Notes under the pieces: generated by a model
What the model saw: the letters and a program-made list of their open reading frames with translations, nothing else
The model's database searches: none
Told to the model about the DNA's origin: nothing
Shown here: piece after piece, positions 20,926 to 28,153 of the stretch
Layout: each line of letters begins with the position of its first letter
Numbering within the stretch: position 1 is the stretch's first letter
IMG/VR virus record: IMGVR_UViG_3300044639_002764
Location: 1 to 38,979 of that record
Length of the DNA stretch: 38,979 nt
Source of the DNA: a virus
Reading direction: 5' to 3' (one strand)
Translations under genes and position numbers: made by a program

Positions 20926-21666
20926 TTAGAATTTCAATAAGATTGCAGAATCACCGTTCCATACTTTGATTTGACGACGAGGAACCCAAAACTCCATCTC
21001 ACCGATTTCCTCAATCTTTGCAAGAACATCCTTGTTAAAACGCTCAACTTCAGATTTGTCCTTGATGTATTCAACACCCATGTGTTTTGCACATGTCTTA
21101 CCGTATCCTGTCAAACGAGAGAACTCATCGGTCAAGGTACGACCACAAGACTTACACACACCACAGTTTTTGGTGGTCAATTTACCTTTGAACTTTACCG
21201 CTTTTGCAGTTAAGGTAACAACCTCAGTGATATCCAACAACATTGGGTTGAACTGTAAACCCTTTTGTTTTTTCAAGGTTTCACCTGTGTTACGACCAAC
21301 CACGATGGTTTCACCAATCACGTCGATGTTCACATCCATACGTTGTTTTGCTTCTTCTTCACGAACAATCGCCTTGTTTGCTGCGTTGATTTGAGCGTCG
21401 GTCAAAGTTCCCCATTTTTCGAACTTTGCTTTGATATCCATTACAAAAGTATTCTCACCTTTGTACTGTACGATAGTTTTGATACGCTCAGGGAGGAATT
21501 CCAATTCCACTTTTTTAGCGGGTTCTGCAAAAGCTTTTTCTACTGCCATGGCTTGTCTTTCGGTCAAGCCACCCCATTTGTTTACTACTTCTTTCATTTT
21601 TGTGATGAAAGAGTTCTGACCCTGATAGTTTCTTACTTTGGTGTTGTGTTTAGTGATGGTGTTCAT
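20926..21666 (-). CDS. Zn-finger protein with two KWGxLT repeats (DUF6011-like)
   Basis: I start it at ATG 21666 (246 residues), because a TAACTTTG box with a leader shared with the next gene lies just upstream; an open frame continues to 21741 but would include the promoter. Residues 12-46 and 66-100 are two copies of a helical repeat (YQGQNSF...KWGGLTERQ and YKGENTF...KWGTLTDAQ). At about 168-198 lies CGVCKSCGRTLTDEFSRLTG followed by YGKTCAKHMG, the DUF6011-type zinc-binding pattern. The combination suggests nucleic-acid binding. The role is unknown. Confidence 0.65.
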   Translation of the reverse strand: MNTITKHNTKVRNYQGQNSFITKMKEVVNKWGGLTERQAMAVEKAFAEPAKKVELEFLPERIKTIVQYKGENTFVMDIKAKFEKWGTLTDAQINAANKAIVREEEAKQRMDVNIDVIGETIVVGRNTGETLKKQKGLQFNPMLLDITEVVTLTAKAVKFKGKLTTKNCGVCKSCGRTLTDEFSRLTGYGKTCAKHMGVEYIKDKSEVERFNKDVLAKIEEIGEMEFWVPRRQIKVWNGDSAILLKF

Positions 21667-21686
21667 AGTGGTGGTGATTAACAATA

Positions 21687-21694
21687 CAAAGTTA
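21687..21694 (-). promoter_or_regulatory. Host-type -7 box for the KWG-repeat gene
   Basis: TAACTTTG, followed by a TATTGTTAATCACCACCACT leader to ATG 21666. The -33 region is TTTT instead of TTTG. The leader is nearly identical to that of the neighbouring 21774 gene. Confidence 0.6.
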
Positions 21695-21728
21695 CGGATA
21701 ATTTCTGAATTAAAAAAATTTATTGCAC

Positions 21729-21754
21729 AAAAAAACCCCACTTTTTAAGTGGAG
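21729..21754 (-). terminator. Terminator after the 21774 gene
   Basis: On the minus strand CTCCACTT and AAGTGGGG pair around AAA and are followed by seven T. Confidence 0.8.
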
Positions 21755-21773: not shown

Positions 21774-22199
21774 TTACGCCATCACCAATTCAGGTTCGTT
21801 CATTACGTATGCCATGCAGGCCCAAGTTTTTGCATTAACCGCTTGATATTGATTTTGGTTATACAAGTTGGTATTCAAGAAGAAACTGTTGATAACTCCG
21901 ACAGTTACATTTCTCAACATATCTTCATCGATGAAAAATACCTTTTTACCTGAACGAGCAAATACGGTTAACCAATGGTCGGTACCTTCTGCTTTGAACT
22001 GGATGGTTTGGATTGCACCTTTCTGGTATTCTGACAAGATTGATGCTGGGTTTTTACTGTAATATTCGTCTTGATTATATCGTGAATCTACGGTAATCAT
22101 GAAACCCCCTCTGGATTTTACGATTACACGGAACTGGCCTTTGCGACCTCCTATGAAGTTTACGGTTTTGATGTCGGTGGTATTGATGATGTTTTTCAT
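21774..22199 (-). CDS. Hypothetical protein (141 aa)
   Basis: The start is ATG 22199 since a perfect promoter lies just upstream; the open frame to 22274 runs through that promoter and a terminator. The protein begins MKNIINTTDIKTVNFIGGRK and is beta-rich (GQFRVIVKSRGGFMITVDSR, IQFKAEGTDHWLTVFA, KKVFFIDEDM). No family is recognised. The codon usage is less AT-biased than its neighbours and the leader is shared with the 20926 gene, so the two may be co-regulated. It has its own terminator. Confidence 0.55.
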   Translation of the reverse strand: MKNIINTTDIKTVNFIGGRKGQFRVIVKSRGGFMITVDSRYNQDEYYSKNPASILSEYQKGAIQTIQFKAEGTDHWLTVFARSGKKVFFIDEDMLRNVTVGVINSFFLNTNLYNQNQYQAVNAKTWACMAYVMNEPELVMA

Positions 22200-22219
22200 A
22201 ATGTTGGTGATTAACAATA

Positions 22220-22250
22220 CAAAGGTACGACAATTTTTTATATTTACAAA
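22220..22250 (-). promoter_or_regulatory. Bacteroidota-type promoter for the 141-aa gene
   Basis: TTTG (22250-22247), 19 bases, TACCTTTG (22227-22220), with a leader of about 20 bases to ATG 22199. The -33 TTTG forms the end of the tmRNA terminator T-tract. Confidence 0.8.
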
Positions 22251-22276
22251 AAAAAAGTGGTCAATATAGACCACTT
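22248..22276 (-). terminator. tmRNA terminator
   Basis: On the minus strand AAGTGGTC and GACCACTT pair around TATATT, then seven or more T, 14 bases after the tmRNA 3' end. Confidence 0.88.
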
Positions 22277-22289
22277 TTGTAGAATTAAG

Positions 22290-22677
22290 TGGAGATGCGC
22301 AGTACTGCCCTGCGGTCTTGTTCGCCCTAAAAAATAGACCCTACACGTTTAGGTTAACATTTTCTAATGTTCCAAAATATCTGAGTTTTCACACCGCTCA
22401 GCGACGGTGGTAGTCCTTAAGGTGAACTACACCCTTTTGTTCCTTTTGAGATAGAAACCACATCTTAAAAGACTTCTGTTCCTAGGTTATATGTCTCCCG
22501 ACCTGAGTGTGTTGTGCCGATTAGGCTACAACAGCAGCTTCCTCACGGATTAAACCGCAAGCAGCCATTTTGTTCAAAACGTTGCCGTTTAATTGTTTAA
22601 ATCAGTTTTTAATGAGTTAATTCAGCTCATACGTGCGTCCATTCATTAATCACGCCAATCGATTCTATTTCACCCCC
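22290..22677 (-). ncRNA. ssrA: tmRNA (ssrA), phage-encoded
   Basis: This 388-base stretch has no ORF but folds as tmRNA. The ends pair as an acceptor: GGGGGTG (22677-22671) with CATCTCC (22297-22291) plus discriminator A; CCA is not encoded. Next to the acceptor is AAUCGAUUGG, matching the conserved UCGA of the tRNA-like domain. Helix 2 pairs AUGGAC and CACGU with ACGUG and GUCUAU near the 3' side. The tag frame starts at GGC (22586) with GNVLNK and ends REEAAVVA, 21 codons, UAA at 22523-22521. The stop lies in the loop of a nine-pair helix 5 (UGUUGU, GCC with GGC, ACAACA). The T-loop is GGCAGTA instead of the usual UUCRANY. It has a host-type promoter and a terminator. Confidence 0.9.
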
Positions 22678-22699: not shown

Positions 22700-22731
22700 C
22701 AAAGATATAAATATATTCTCAAACAAACAAA
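22700..22731 (-). promoter_or_regulatory. Bacteroidota-type promoter for tmRNA
   Basis: TTTG (22731-22728), 20 bases, TATCTTTG (22707-22700). The 5' end of mature tmRNA is 23 bases downstream of the box, leaving a short leader for RNase P to remove. A second TTTG at 22727-22724 gives a 16-base spacer and is less likely. Confidence 0.75.
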
Positions 22732-22744: not shown

Positions 22745-22749
22745 TTATG

Positions 22750-24594
22750 ATGTCAGAAAATGTTATTAATGAAGTAATGTCAATGTTATTGGTTGAAGAC
22801 CGACGCTCTGATTTATTAACCAAATTCAAAAGTTTGAATATTAATTGGCCGACAAGGACAACTGAAGAAAACAAAGACGAATTGTTTCGTTTGATTTGGG
22901 ACCGAGATTTGAGCCCAACCAAAAAATACATCCCTTGGCTATTTAGACAAATAGAATTAAATCCTGGATTGAATCCGTATTCATTAGATGATACCATGTT
23001 TGATATATCTACATACATGGAGTTGATTGAAAAAAGGACTAATAAGGGTATTGAGACAGATTTTCAAAATAGATTAAAAAATGGTGACTTACAAAATTTT
23101 GCATTGGTGTACGACAAAATATTAAAAGCACCAAAAGATATTAATTCTTATGATAGTATAAATGCACTTCGAGAATATTATAAACATATCAAAGAATATA
23201 CATTCGCTAAAGACGAAATTAAAAAAGCCAAAAAAGAATCCAAAAAATTATACGAAGATGCTAATTACCTAATTGTCCAACCTTTGAGTTACACAGCATC
23301 ATGTGTGTATGGTGCGGGTACAAAATGGTGTGTATCATCAAGAGATACGGATAGACATTTTGAAGATTATACTAGAAGTTCAAAATTTGTTTATGTTATT
23401 AATAAAAAAAGTAATGACAGAAAATATGGTAAGTTTGCATTAAGAATACCAAACAACAAAAAAGAAAGTACTGAAGTTTGGGACCAACAGGATGCTAGGT
23501 CTACTTTCGATATTATGTTCGAAAAAATGCCAGGTATTAATTTAATTTTGGATGATATATTAAACATTTCAACAAACGAATACCAAATACTTAAAAAGTA
23601 CCAAGAAGGTAAAATAAAAGAAGATGAGGTTTTTTTACCTAACACCAATTTTGAAATTGAAAACGGAACATTATTCATGATGTTCGAAGACAATGAAGAA
23701 TACTTCAAGTTATTCAAATACGAACTATACGATTATACAATATCTGAAATGATTGCTATTACATCATACTCTTATGGGTATTCATCAAGAGAGTGGACCG
23801 ATTCTTATACCGCGAAAGAAGAATTTGATGAGGGTTATATGTTTGGTTATTTGGATGATGAAAATTTGGGAAAATTAAAAAAGATTGTAAAAATATTAAG
23901 ACCTAGTTTTGATTTTCTTGAAACAGAAGAACGCAGAAATTGGGAAGTTTATAAAGAAATGGCCCAAATTCTTGGAACTTATGATAGATTCAAAGATGAT
24001 ATGATTAGTTCTTATTCAATGGCATCTGATAGAGCTTATGAAGTAGGATTGGAACAGGCTATTAAAGACGAATTTTGTGATTGTTTGGGACCTTTGGGTA
24101 TTAAGATGATTAAGTGTTTTAAAAGTTATTCTATCAGTGTTGAAGACATGTTAAAACTTTATGAAGAAAATTCGGACCCAAAAAACTCAATAGAAAAGAC
24201 GATTGCCATGTCAATTACAACTTTAAGTCTTCCTGATGTTATAGAAAATTCTTATGAGTATCGTGACGAGGACACTTTAGTTTCAGAACTTAATAGTGAT
24301 ATAAGAGGTGAAATTGAAAAACTGTACGATAGTATTATGGATAATGAAGACGGGTTATTTGATGATATTGATGAGTATTCTAAAATTGTTGATTACATTG
24401 TTAAAAATTTCGGATTCAACGTTAGAAAAAATATACCAACACAACCTGACACTTATTTTGAGATAGTTGGTGTTGAACCACAAAATGAAGTGTTAATTGA
24501 ACTTACTAAGGGTTACAAAAGAAAAAGATTACTCGTTAGTTTAGAACAACTGGAAACTTTGTTGAAAAATTACAAACTTTTTGATATTATATAA
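22750..24594 (+). CDS. Large phage protein with GxGTKWC motif
   Basis: The 614-residue protein starts MSENVINEVMSMLLVEDRRS. At about residues 170-235 it has YLIVQPLSYTASCVYGAG, TKWCVSSRDTDRHFEDYT and SSKFVYVINKK. I have seen the G-x-G-T-K-W-C-x-[SA] pattern in long uncharacterised phage proteins, but I know no assigned activity. The remainder is acidic and helical with a C-terminal beta segment (NEVLIELTKGYKRKRLLVSL). L-L-V-E15 near the N-terminus fits the prohead-cleavage pattern only loosely. It starts from a late element divergent from tmRNA, and its 3' end carries the next gene's promoter. Confidence 0.55.
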   Translation: MSENVINEVMSMLLVEDRRSDLLTKFKSLNINWPTRTTEENKDELFRLIWDRDLSPTKKYIPWLFRQIELNPGLNPYSLDDTMFDISTYMELIEKRTNKGIETDFQNRLKNGDLQNFALVYDKILKAPKDINSYDSINALREYYKHIKEYTFAKDEIKKAKKESKKLYEDANYLIVQPLSYTASCVYGAGTKWCVSSRDTDRHFEDYTRSSKFVYVINKKSNDRKYGKFALRIPNNKKESTEVWDQQDARSTFDIMFEKMPGINLILDDILNISTNEYQILKKYQEGKIKEDEVFLPNTNFEIENGTLFMMFEDNEEYFKLFKYELYDYTISEMIAITSYSYGYSSREWTDSYTAKEEFDEGYMFGYLDDENLGKLKKIVKILRPSFDFLETEERRNWEVYKEMAQILGTYDRFKDDMISSYSMASDRAYEVGLEQAIKDEFCDCLGPLGIKMIKCFKSYSISVEDMLKLYEENSDPKNSIEKTIAMSITTLSLPDVIENSYEYRDEDTLVSELNSDIRGEIEKLYDSIMDNEDGLFDDIDEYSKIVDYIVKNFGFNVRKNIPTQPDTYFEIVGVEPQNEVLIELTKGYKRKRLLVSLEQLETLLKNYKLFDII

Positions 24595-25441: not shown

Positions 25442-25472
25442 AAAAAAGGGGTCTTAATCGACCCCTTTTTTT
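25442..25472. terminator. Bidirectional terminator between peptidase and clpC
   Basis: AAAAAAGGGGTC and GACCCCTTTTTTT pair around TTAATC. Confidence 0.9.
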
Positions 25473-27543
25473 ATTCTACCTCAGACTTTTTCTTTCTTGT
25501 CTTTTTAGGTTTTGGTTCTTCAACCCGTTCTTCAATGAAAACCACTTTGTCATCCTGATAACCCAAAGTGTATGGTTTGTCAATCACAACATTACCCTTC
25601 AAGATTTCATCAGATATAAAATCTTCGATTTGAGATTGAATTGCTCTTTTGATTGGTCGAGCACCAAACTTTTCATCAAAACCAATTTCAGCGATTTTTG
25701 AAACCAAAGTTTCATCAATTTTGATTAGGTATTTCATACCTTCTAATCTCTTGATAAGTTTACCCAATTCGATATTAACAATTTGAGAAATTTCATTTTC
25801 TTTCAAAGGATTGAAAAATACAATGTCATCAACACGGTTAATAAATTCAGGTGGAAAGAATTTGCGAAGCTCATCTTCAATCATCATTTTCTTCATTTCA
25901 ACCTCTTTTTCAATTCTTGTTGTTGTACCAAAACCAACACCAGTTCCGAAGTCTTGAATTTTTCTTGCTCCGATATTTGAAGTCATAATAATCAAAGTAT
26001 TTTTGAAGTTGATTTTACGACCCAAACTATCTGTTAAGAATCCTTCGTCCATAGTTTGAAGAAGAAGGGTGAATATGTCCTTGTGTGCCTTTTCAATTTC
26101 ATCAAACAAGATAACAGAATAAGGTTTGTTTTTTACCTGTTCAGTTAATTGTCCACCTTCATTGTGTCCAACATAACCAGGAGGTGAACCAATCAATCTT
26201 GTCATTGTAAATTTTTCTTGATATTCGGACATATCAACCCTAATTAAAGCTTCTGAATCACCAAAGATTTCTCTTGCCAATTGTTTTGCCAAGTGAGTCT
26301 TACCAATACCTGTAGAACCCAAGAAGATAAATGAACCTATAGGTTTATTTGGTTCTTTAATACCAACCCTGTTTCTACGGATTGCTCTTGAAATCTTTGC
26401 GACTGCTTCGTTTTGACCGATAACGGATTGTTGTAGGTTTTCTTCTAAATGTAACAATGACTCTGATTCACTTTGTGAAAGTTTTGTCACGGGAATTTTG
26501 GTCATTGCCGCAACAACTTCATAAACCATGTCATCACCAACTTCCTTTCGGTTGTTGCTTCTGTTGTTCTCGAAGTTTTCTTTTTCTTCTTGAAGTCTTT
26601 TTAAAACCTTTCTTTCACGGTCACGTAATTCTGCAGCTTCTTCAAATCTTTGGTTTCTAACAACATCAATTTTTAATTGTTTAATTTTGTTAGCTTCTTC
26701 TTTAAGTTCCTCAATAATTTCGGGAACTTTAACTGTAATTTGACATCTAGCACCAACTTCATCCATGATATCAATGGCTTTGTCAGGAAACTCACGGTCT
26801 GTGATGTATCTATCCGCCAAATAAACACAAGCCTTAATTGCCTCGTCACTGAAATGTACCTTGTGGTGTTTTTCGTAATTTTCTTTTGCTTTTTCAAGAA
26901 TCTTAATTGTGTCAGTAATTGAAGTAGGTTCCACAATAACTTTTTGAAATCTTCTTTCCAAAGCACCATCCTTTTCGATGTGTTCACGATATTCATCTAA
27001 AGTAGTTGCACCGATACATTGGAGTTCTCCACGAGCAAGAGCGGGCTTGAATATGTTAGACGCGTCCAAAGAACCTGAAGAATTACCAGCTCCGATAATA
27101 GTGTGAATTTCATCAATAAAGATAATCACATCATGGGCTTCACGTAACTCGTCAGTAATAACTTTCATTCGTTCTTCAAACTGACCACGATACTTTGTAC
27201 CAGCAACGATTGATGTCATATCCAAACTTACAATTCTTTTATCCAAAAGATTTTGTGGACAATCACCTTCAAATATTTTCATCGCAAGTCCTTCAACAAC
27301 TGCAGTTTTACCACAACCTGGTTCACCAACCAATATTGGGTTATTTTTCTTTCTTCTTGAAAGAATCTGAGCAAGTCTGATAATTTCATTCTCTCTACCA
27401 ATAACAGGGTCTAACTTTCCTTCTTGAGCCAATTTAATAAGGTCACGAGAAAAGTTGTCCAATACGGGAGTGTTTGATTTTGAATCTGCCTTTGGGTTTT
27501 TCTTATCACCCATTTTTTCATTACGGTCTTCAGCGTCTATCAT
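25471..27543 (-). CDS. clpC: ClpC-type AAA+ unfoldase lacking the N-domain
   Basis: The 690-residue protein starts at ATG 27543 ([12 protein letters not shown]); an upstream TTG at 27552 lies inside the promoter. D1 has PVIGRENEI, Walker A GEPGCGKT (73-80), the pore-loop region [12 protein letters not shown] and Walker B IIFIDEIH. The short middle domain has a UVR-like [17 protein letters not shown], typical of ClpC. D2 has [32 protein letters not shown] and [20 protein letters not shown] holds the VGF tripeptide used by ClpC to dock ClpP. The usual 150-residue N-domain, which binds substrates and adaptors, is absent. The C-terminal tail is basic ([13 protein letters not shown]). It may recruit host ClpP. 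Confidence 0.93.
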
Positions 27544-27549
27544 ATGGTT

Positions 27550-27580
27550 CAAATATAAAATTTATTTCCAAAATATCAAA
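27550..27580 (-). promoter_or_regulatory. Bacteroidota-type promoter for clpC
   Basis: TTTG (27580-27577), 19 bases, TATATTTG (27557-27550), six bases before ATG 27543. Confidence 0.8.
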
Positions 27581-27685: not shown

Positions 27686-28153
27686 ATGTTTGACTTATTT
27701 GGAAAAAATTACGGAAAATCAATTAAACAATTAATGAAAGAGTTTGATGAAATGATGGAAGGTATGAACAGATTCGACATTAATTATGATGAACACCCAA
27801 AATTAAAAGAAGAAAAAGGTAGTGATGAAAATGGTGAATGGACCAAAACTACCTATTCAACACCTGACGGTTCGTTTAGGTATCATGTTATTACAACATT
27901 AACTAATGGAAATCCTAAACAAAAAGGTAAAAAAACTGACGACACAATTTCTAAATTAAAACAAGAATTAGAATTATGTGTTGAAAAACAAGAATTTGAA
28001 AAAGCGGTTGAGTTAAGAGATAAGATTAGAAAATTTGAATCAAACCAAAATGAACTTTTGGAACTACAAGGAAAACTTGACGAAGCAATTTCAAAACAAG
28101 ACTTTGAGTCAGCAATAAAGCTCCGAGACAAAATAAATAAAATGAAGTCTTAA
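27686..28153 (+). CDS. Two-UVR-motif protein, possible ClpC adaptor
   Basis: The 155-residue protein starts MFDLFGKNYGKSIKQLMKEF. A beta-rich middle (WTKTTYSTPDGSFRYHVITT) is followed by two UVR motifs: ISKLKQELELCVEKQEFEKA with VELRDKIRK, and LQGKLDEAISKQDFESAIKL with RDKINK. The UVR fold is the helical hairpin of UvrB/UvrC contacts and of McsA and the ClpC middle domain, where it mediates ClpC interactions. McsA-type zinc fingers are absent. It is divergent from clpC across a short shared promoter region, so joint regulation and physical interaction with ClpC are plausible. That is inference from family and position. Confidence 0.7.
   Translation: MFDLFGKNYGKSIKQLMKEFDEMMEGMNRFDINYDEHPKLKEEKGSDENGEWTKTTYSTPDGSFRYHVITTLTNGNPKQKGKKTDDTISKLKQELELCVEKQEFEKAVELRDKIRKFESNQNELLELQGKLDEAISKQDFESAIKLRDKINKMKS

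Follow-up and report, generated by a model that had tools for sequence, protein, structure and literature searches.

A tmRNA with a long conserved tag and an alpha-type elbow in a T4-like phage of probable Bacteroidota host

Results

The window (the whole stretch of DNA analysed, 38,979 nucleotides, a 39-kb virus record of IMG/VR) encodes on its minus strand a predicted full-length one-piece tmRNA, and we regard it as highly likely that this RNA is a working tmRNA carrying the 21-residue tag GNVLNKMAACGLIREEAAVVA. Positions 22287-22677 match the Rfam model RF00023 with a score of 60 bits (gathering score 47 bits) and an E value of 3.4e-21 over the whole model (1-374). An earlier note, made from the letters alone, had read 22290-22677 as a tmRNA that the phage encodes and that bears a tag of 21 codons, a reading borne out by this match, which is the covariance-model check that it had proposed, and by conservation of the tag as a peptide; its limits are those of the mature RNA through A73 (22677 to 22290, 388 nucleotides), and the paired ends that it had seen, GGGGGTG with CATCTCC, form the seven base pairs of the acceptor stem. 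ARAGORN, the other program it had named, missed the tmRNA and reported only a tRNA-Leu in the window. CCA is absent from the gene, with ACTT standing in its place. The features expected of an RF00023 member are otherwise present, namely the covariance match, a 7-bp acceptor with G3-U70 and A73, a 5-bp T-stem, a tag frame open from the resume codon and a stop near the helix-5 loop; the canonical T-loop UUCRA with D-loop GG is replaced by GGCAGTA and UAG. This canonical elbow is typical of tmRNAs and does not define them, because accepted RF01849 tmRNAs have an alternative one. The pair G3-U70 together with A73 gives the predicted RNA alanine identity. Its minimum free energy fold as a whole is only modestly better than that of shuffled sequences (z -1.7). 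The features are collected in Table 1.

Table 1. Features of the tmRNA locus and of the candidate partner genes in the window
Feature	Position	Strand	Remarks
Intrinsic terminator	22253..22278	(-)	10-bp stem and U tract, about 9-12 nt past the tmRNA 3' end
One-piece tmRNA gene	22287..22677	(-)	RF00023, 60 bits; family of 68 distinct one-piece phage tmRNAs
Acceptor stem, 3' strand CAUCUCC, A73 at 22290	22291..22297	(-)	7/7 pairs
T-arm CGCAG-GGCAGTA-CTGCG, alpha-type T-loop	22298..22314	(-)	T-stem CGCAG/CUGCG, 5/5 pairs
Terminal tag hairpin (helix 5), stop in loop	22510..22533	(-)	Fold -11.3 kcal/mol, z -2.1
Tag frame, 21 codons and TAA, GNVLNKMAACGLIREEAAVVA	22521..22586	(-)	Resume codon GGC by Rfam alignment
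D-loop UAG replacing UGG (G18 to A)	22665..22667	(-)	Covaries with T-loop type, 67/67
Acceptor stem, 5' strand GGGGGUG	22671..22677	(-)	7/7 pairs; G3 pairs with U70
Bacteroidota-type promoter TTTG-N20-TATCTTTG	22700..22731	(-)	About 23 nt upstream of the tmRNA 5' end
ClpC-like double AAA+ unfoldase, no N-domain, VGF loop	25471..27552	(-)	Proposed tag reader
UVR-repeat protein, 155 aa, two UVR-like repeats	27686..28153	(+)	Beside the ClpC-like gene; NF053706, E 1.7e-9

The family was assembled from viral contigs by DNA-pattern scans and a profile built on the 16 sequences found first, and it comprises 68 distinct one-piece tmRNAs. All 64 scored members have 7/7 acceptor and 5/5 T-stem pairs with invariant G3-U70 and A73, and compensatory changes occur across the family in the T-stem and the lower acceptor. 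ARAGORN misses 53 of the 68, and RF00023 scores at least four (L166, L295, L298 and L322) below its cut-off; phage tmRNA surveys that rely on ARAGORN therefore undercount. A scan of bacterial genomes with the 3' motif returned 21 bacterial or archaeal hits, none of them a tmRNA of the window type. Phage tmRNAs are already known: they have been reported in 402 of 18,146 phage genomes (PMC9004378), a tmRNA database holds 79 unique phage sequences (PMC11915505), and tmRNA and SmpB have been noted in huge phages (PMC7162821). The new variant is the tag family of the window. Two further RNAs came to light in these searches. A GOLLD RNA (RF02032, 330 bits) lies at L259:1260-1659 (+) on a viral contig that also carries a GGC-elbow tmRNA, about 0.8 kb away, and a Bacteroidota-phylum bacterial genome carries, about 45 kb from its main tmRNA, a second one (G147:C1:772761-773172, 49.3 bits), possibly on a mobile element.

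The tag frame starts with GGC at 22586 and ends with TAA at 22523-22521. Across the 66 family tmRNAs read in frame, it is open in 66/66 and encodes 20-23 residues; the +1 and +2 frames are closed in 64/66 and 65/66. The ratio pN/pS is 0.36 in the tag frame (27 disjoint pairs, Fisher p 2e-8) and 0.64 and 1.95 in the shifted frames; the test ignores RNA-structure constraint on codons, a constraint that the shifted-frame controls share. On this comparison the tag is judged to be under purifying selection, and because it is conserved as a peptide we consider its translation very probable. Among 48 distinct tags, G1 is found in 48/48, G11 in 47/48 and L12 in 46/48; position 3 is V or T, positions 4, 7 and 13 are mostly hydrophobic, and frequent C-termini are VAVA, VTVA, AVVA and VVAA. 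None of the 48 ends in LAA or MAA. The earlier note had described host Bacteroidota tags as short with ALAA-like ends, and this agrees with the Bacteroidota-phylum tmRNAs whose tag ARAGORN could read, which have 9-10 residues ending in LAA or MAA. The possibility that the tag copies a phage protein was rejected, since among the 80,722 reading frames in the fetched loci the tag peptide turned up in tmRNAs only.

The end of the tag is placed differently by Rfam and by the reading frame. The Rfam alignment sets helix 5 within the tag, at an earlier out-of-frame UAA, and on that basis the tag could end early with a short product, ...WLLAV. Downstream of the resume codon that frame meets a UGA before it reaches the UAA, nearly all family members have stops in the alternative frames, and the protein signal belongs to the GGC frame, so that an early end seems extremely improbable. 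The hairpin at 22533-22510 (UGUUGU-A-GCC/GGC-ACAACA) instead carries the tag's own UAA in its loop, and here the placement of helix 5 in the earlier note fits the conserved frame, whereas that of Rfam does not. Family-wide, a stop in a hairpin loop occurs in 34/55 members against 27/66, 49/66 and 23/66 for displaced controls, giving no separation; helix 5 therefore rests on the hairpin of the window and on stability (mean z -2.2).

The T-loop GGCAGTA, which the earlier note had flagged as departing from the consensus, is indeed non-canonical but is no private oddity: together with the D-loop UAG, where others have UGG, it corresponds to the consensus of the Rfam alphaproteobacterial tmRNA RF01849 (T-loop GGC[AG]GUA, D-loop AUAGG). 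GG at these T-loop positions has been reported for Reclinomonas mitochondria, and one G for Caulobacter (PMC1168896). In 67 phage tmRNAs we found 17 GGC/AG elbows, 50 UUC/GG elbows and no mixed ones; one DNA-pattern scan selected the GGC T-loop, so that 17/67 is not a frequency, while the coupling stands because the scan did not select on the D-loop. On a tree built without the T-loop and D-loop columns, in which L322 is a long branch, each trait changes at least nine times, and in about nine cases both switch at once; the coupling holds in all six supported independent pairs (p 0.031). The known contacts of the tRNA elbow are 54-58, 18-55 and 19-56 (PMC7912444). The GGC/AG elbow may be a structural equivalent of UUC/GG that retains G19-C56 and substitutes the 18-55 and 54-58 contacts jointly; lacking U54 and U55, it would be unable to form the usual m5U and pseudouridine. 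What is new is the repeated, coordinated appearance of this elbow in one-piece phage tmRNAs. No alternative T-arm was found in 395 Bacteroidota-phylum genomes; two of the 395 fit the elbow pattern, both without a proper T-stem, and were dismissed as chance. Some 70 further hits to the T-arm pattern GGCRGNA were collected (L248-L340); the four tested (L252, L258, L312 and L332) proved to be alpha-type tmRNAs of the permuted kind, all from viral contigs, and the remainder resemble such tmRNAs by eye.

With a Bacteroidota-type promoter upstream and a strong intrinsic terminator downstream (Table 1), the tmRNA of the window looks like a separate transcription unit. Sites of the type TTTG-N20-TATCTTTG number 13 in the window against 2.6 expected, a count reached in 0 of 100 shuffles, and terminator-like sites around the tmRNA number two in the region against 0.3 in shuffles. 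Divergent from the promoter region lies a gene for a 615-aa protein (22747-24594, (+)), for which Pfam and NCBIfam gave no match and the sole hit, a weak one, was to a PHROG of unknown function. The adjoining genes 20926-21741 and 21774-22274 (-), one of which carries DUF6011, share similar leader DNA in which both GTG-initiated reading frames contain ...FVLLIT...M; promoter and leader are probably repeated here. The 166-aa reading frame at 21774-22274 was considered as an SmpB neighbouring the tmRNA and was set aside, having no Pfam match.

The window contig represents part of a T4-like myovirus. It encodes a T4-type terminase, and the closest annotated terminases include the one from Flavobacterium phage immuto (27% identity); no tmRNA was found in the immuto genome. 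Because the promoters in the window are of Bacteroidota type, the host is probably a member of the Bacteroidota. Contigs related to the window reach 311 kb, and 15 of the 37 related records searched contain a tmRNA over cut-off.

Candidate partners of the tag are encoded nearby. The reading frame 25471-27552 aligns with S. aureus ClpC (6em9) from ClpC residue 147 on (E 2.5e-225) and contains two AAA+ modules, a UVR-type middle domain and the [IVL]GF ClpP-docking loop. Only 74-89 residues precede the first Walker A motif, and we use the label ClpC-like because the N-terminal adaptor-binding domain is absent. A ClpC-like gene is present in 19 of 22 related records, the VGF/LGF loop is kept in all 11 readable homologs, and the gene lies 3 kb from the tmRNA in the window and about 3-20 kb from it across loci. 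ClpC-like genes also occur in 166 phage records, and since they are found in so many other phages ClpC need not serve the tag. In one relative (G031:C1:51528-53512) the ClpC-like gene is broken into two open frames that overlap. The product of 27686-28153 matches NF053706 well under its cut-off and resembles the C-terminal motif of McsA, a co-factor of ClpC; it is a possible adaptor. ClpP is encoded by three jumbo relatives, and SmpB (142 aa, PF01668, 138.6 bits) is encoded at L409:1100-1528, about 5 kb from the tmRNA of one jumbo relative, the 310,691-base contig G026. This contig also carries ClpP and ClpC and so holds all the parts for trans-translation and disposal on one phage contig. Neither SmpB nor ClpP was found in the window or its closest long relatives, and for the window phage host factors must therefore suffice.

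Discussion

Compared with the one-piece ssrA of Bacteroidota (RF00023), the tmRNA of the window has the same order of parts, G3-U70 acceptor, CUAAACGUGUAG helix-2 region and stop in helix 5, at a length of 388; it differs in its 21-residue tag without ALAA, where Bacteroidota have 9-10 residues (GENNYALAA and similar), and in its alpha-type elbow, and CCA is not encoded. The alphaproteobacterial two-piece tmRNAs (RF01849, and RF04321 tmRNA_permuted) share the T-loop GGC[AG]GUA and the D-loop AUAG, but the gene of the window is one-piece and unpermuted, with the acceptor strands at its two ends, and in body and tag it is a member of a phage family in which the UUC elbow predominates. Among the matches listed for the window there was no alpha_tmRNA or tmRNA_permuted, and only RF00023 reached its cut-off. 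By these features the RNA shares the alpha elbow and is not assigned to the alphaproteobacterial or permuted tmRNAs. Bacillus phage G, cluster C mycobacteriophages, Melnitz-like marine phages and huge phages likewise carry a complete tmRNA, and the 13-residue tag of phage G, AKLNITNNELQVA, also ends in VA. The long tag family G-x-[VT]-...-GL[IVLT]-...-VAVA sets the tmRNA of the window apart from these; it was found neither in 50,697 phage records, for which tblastn with 21 residues is a weak search, nor in the literature searched. A tag without the ALAA end is also known from Mycoplasma, where it has been attributed to a shift of protease (PMC3985003). The Mycoplasma tags read by Lon differ from those described here in sequence and ending, and the likely hosts of the window phage have Clp proteases, with the phage bringing ClpC.

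All of the evidence consists of sequences of metagenomic contigs. Following the known pathway of trans-translation, the host would add CCA to the phage tmRNA, AlaRS would charge it, host SmpB and EF-Tu would bring it to stalled ribosomes, and the stalled nascent chain would gain Ala and GNVLNKMAACGLIREEAAVVA. The phage tag would replace the ALAA degron of the host, and the tagged products would then go to the phage ClpC-like unfoldase working on host ClpP rather than to host ClpXP; in the jumbo relatives, the unfoldase would dock on phage ClpP. We put forward this fate of the tagged products tentatively, as one that is possible and somewhat short of probable; what links tag and unfoldase is neighbourhood and co-occurrence. 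On a broader and doubtful reading, a lineage of T4-like phages of Bacteroidota would have a rescue and disposal line to itself, with the tmRNA tag and ClpC joined in jumbo relatives by ClpP and SmpB, and the toggling of the elbow would perhaps escape elbow-directed host factors such as T-loop modification enzymes or nucleases.

Host proteases might instead not recognise the tag at all, so that ribosomes are freed and the tagged phage proteins survive. That none of the 48 tags ends in the host degron LAA or MAA, most ending in VAVA, VTVA, AVVA or similar, would fit such rescue without destruction. Nevertheless, the C-termini keep a small, hydrophobic character and almost always close with Ala, as in degrons, tags without ALAA can be degrons (the AFA tags of Mycoplasma are read by Lon, PMC3985003), and the N-terminal half of the tag is conserved too, which mere non-recognition would not need; we consider this account possible, and slightly less likely than disposal through ClpC. 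A regulatory decoy, titrating SmpB or competing with host tmRNA with the tag incidental, has a parallel in mycobacteriophage DS6A, whose tag-less RNA has little beyond the tRNA-like domain and resembles a molecule that inhibits tmRNA (PMC4131195), and a non-host elbow could change the binding of SmpB, for which D-loop and T-loop contacts are needed (PMC3968760). A decoy could do without a tag, whereas the tag here appears to be under purifying selection and is open in every family member read, and the family retains a full mRNA-like domain; we think a decoy improbable. Capture of a bacterial tmRNA, or misassembled host DNA, without a function for the phage, is more improbable still. Although integration often takes place at tmRNA genes, which phages sometimes take along (PMC9004378), this one recurs in related T4-like phages, the bacterial genome scan gave no tmRNA of its type, and the phage tags are unlike all Bacteroidota tags seen.

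In this phage family conservation extends beyond the degron tail to the whole tag, which is unlike the tags of the likely hosts, so that one reporter could test why phages carry tmRNA. In the elbow, two D-loop/T-loop solutions have replaced each other some nine times among RNAs that are similar elsewhere, which amounts to a natural experiment on the tRNA elbow.
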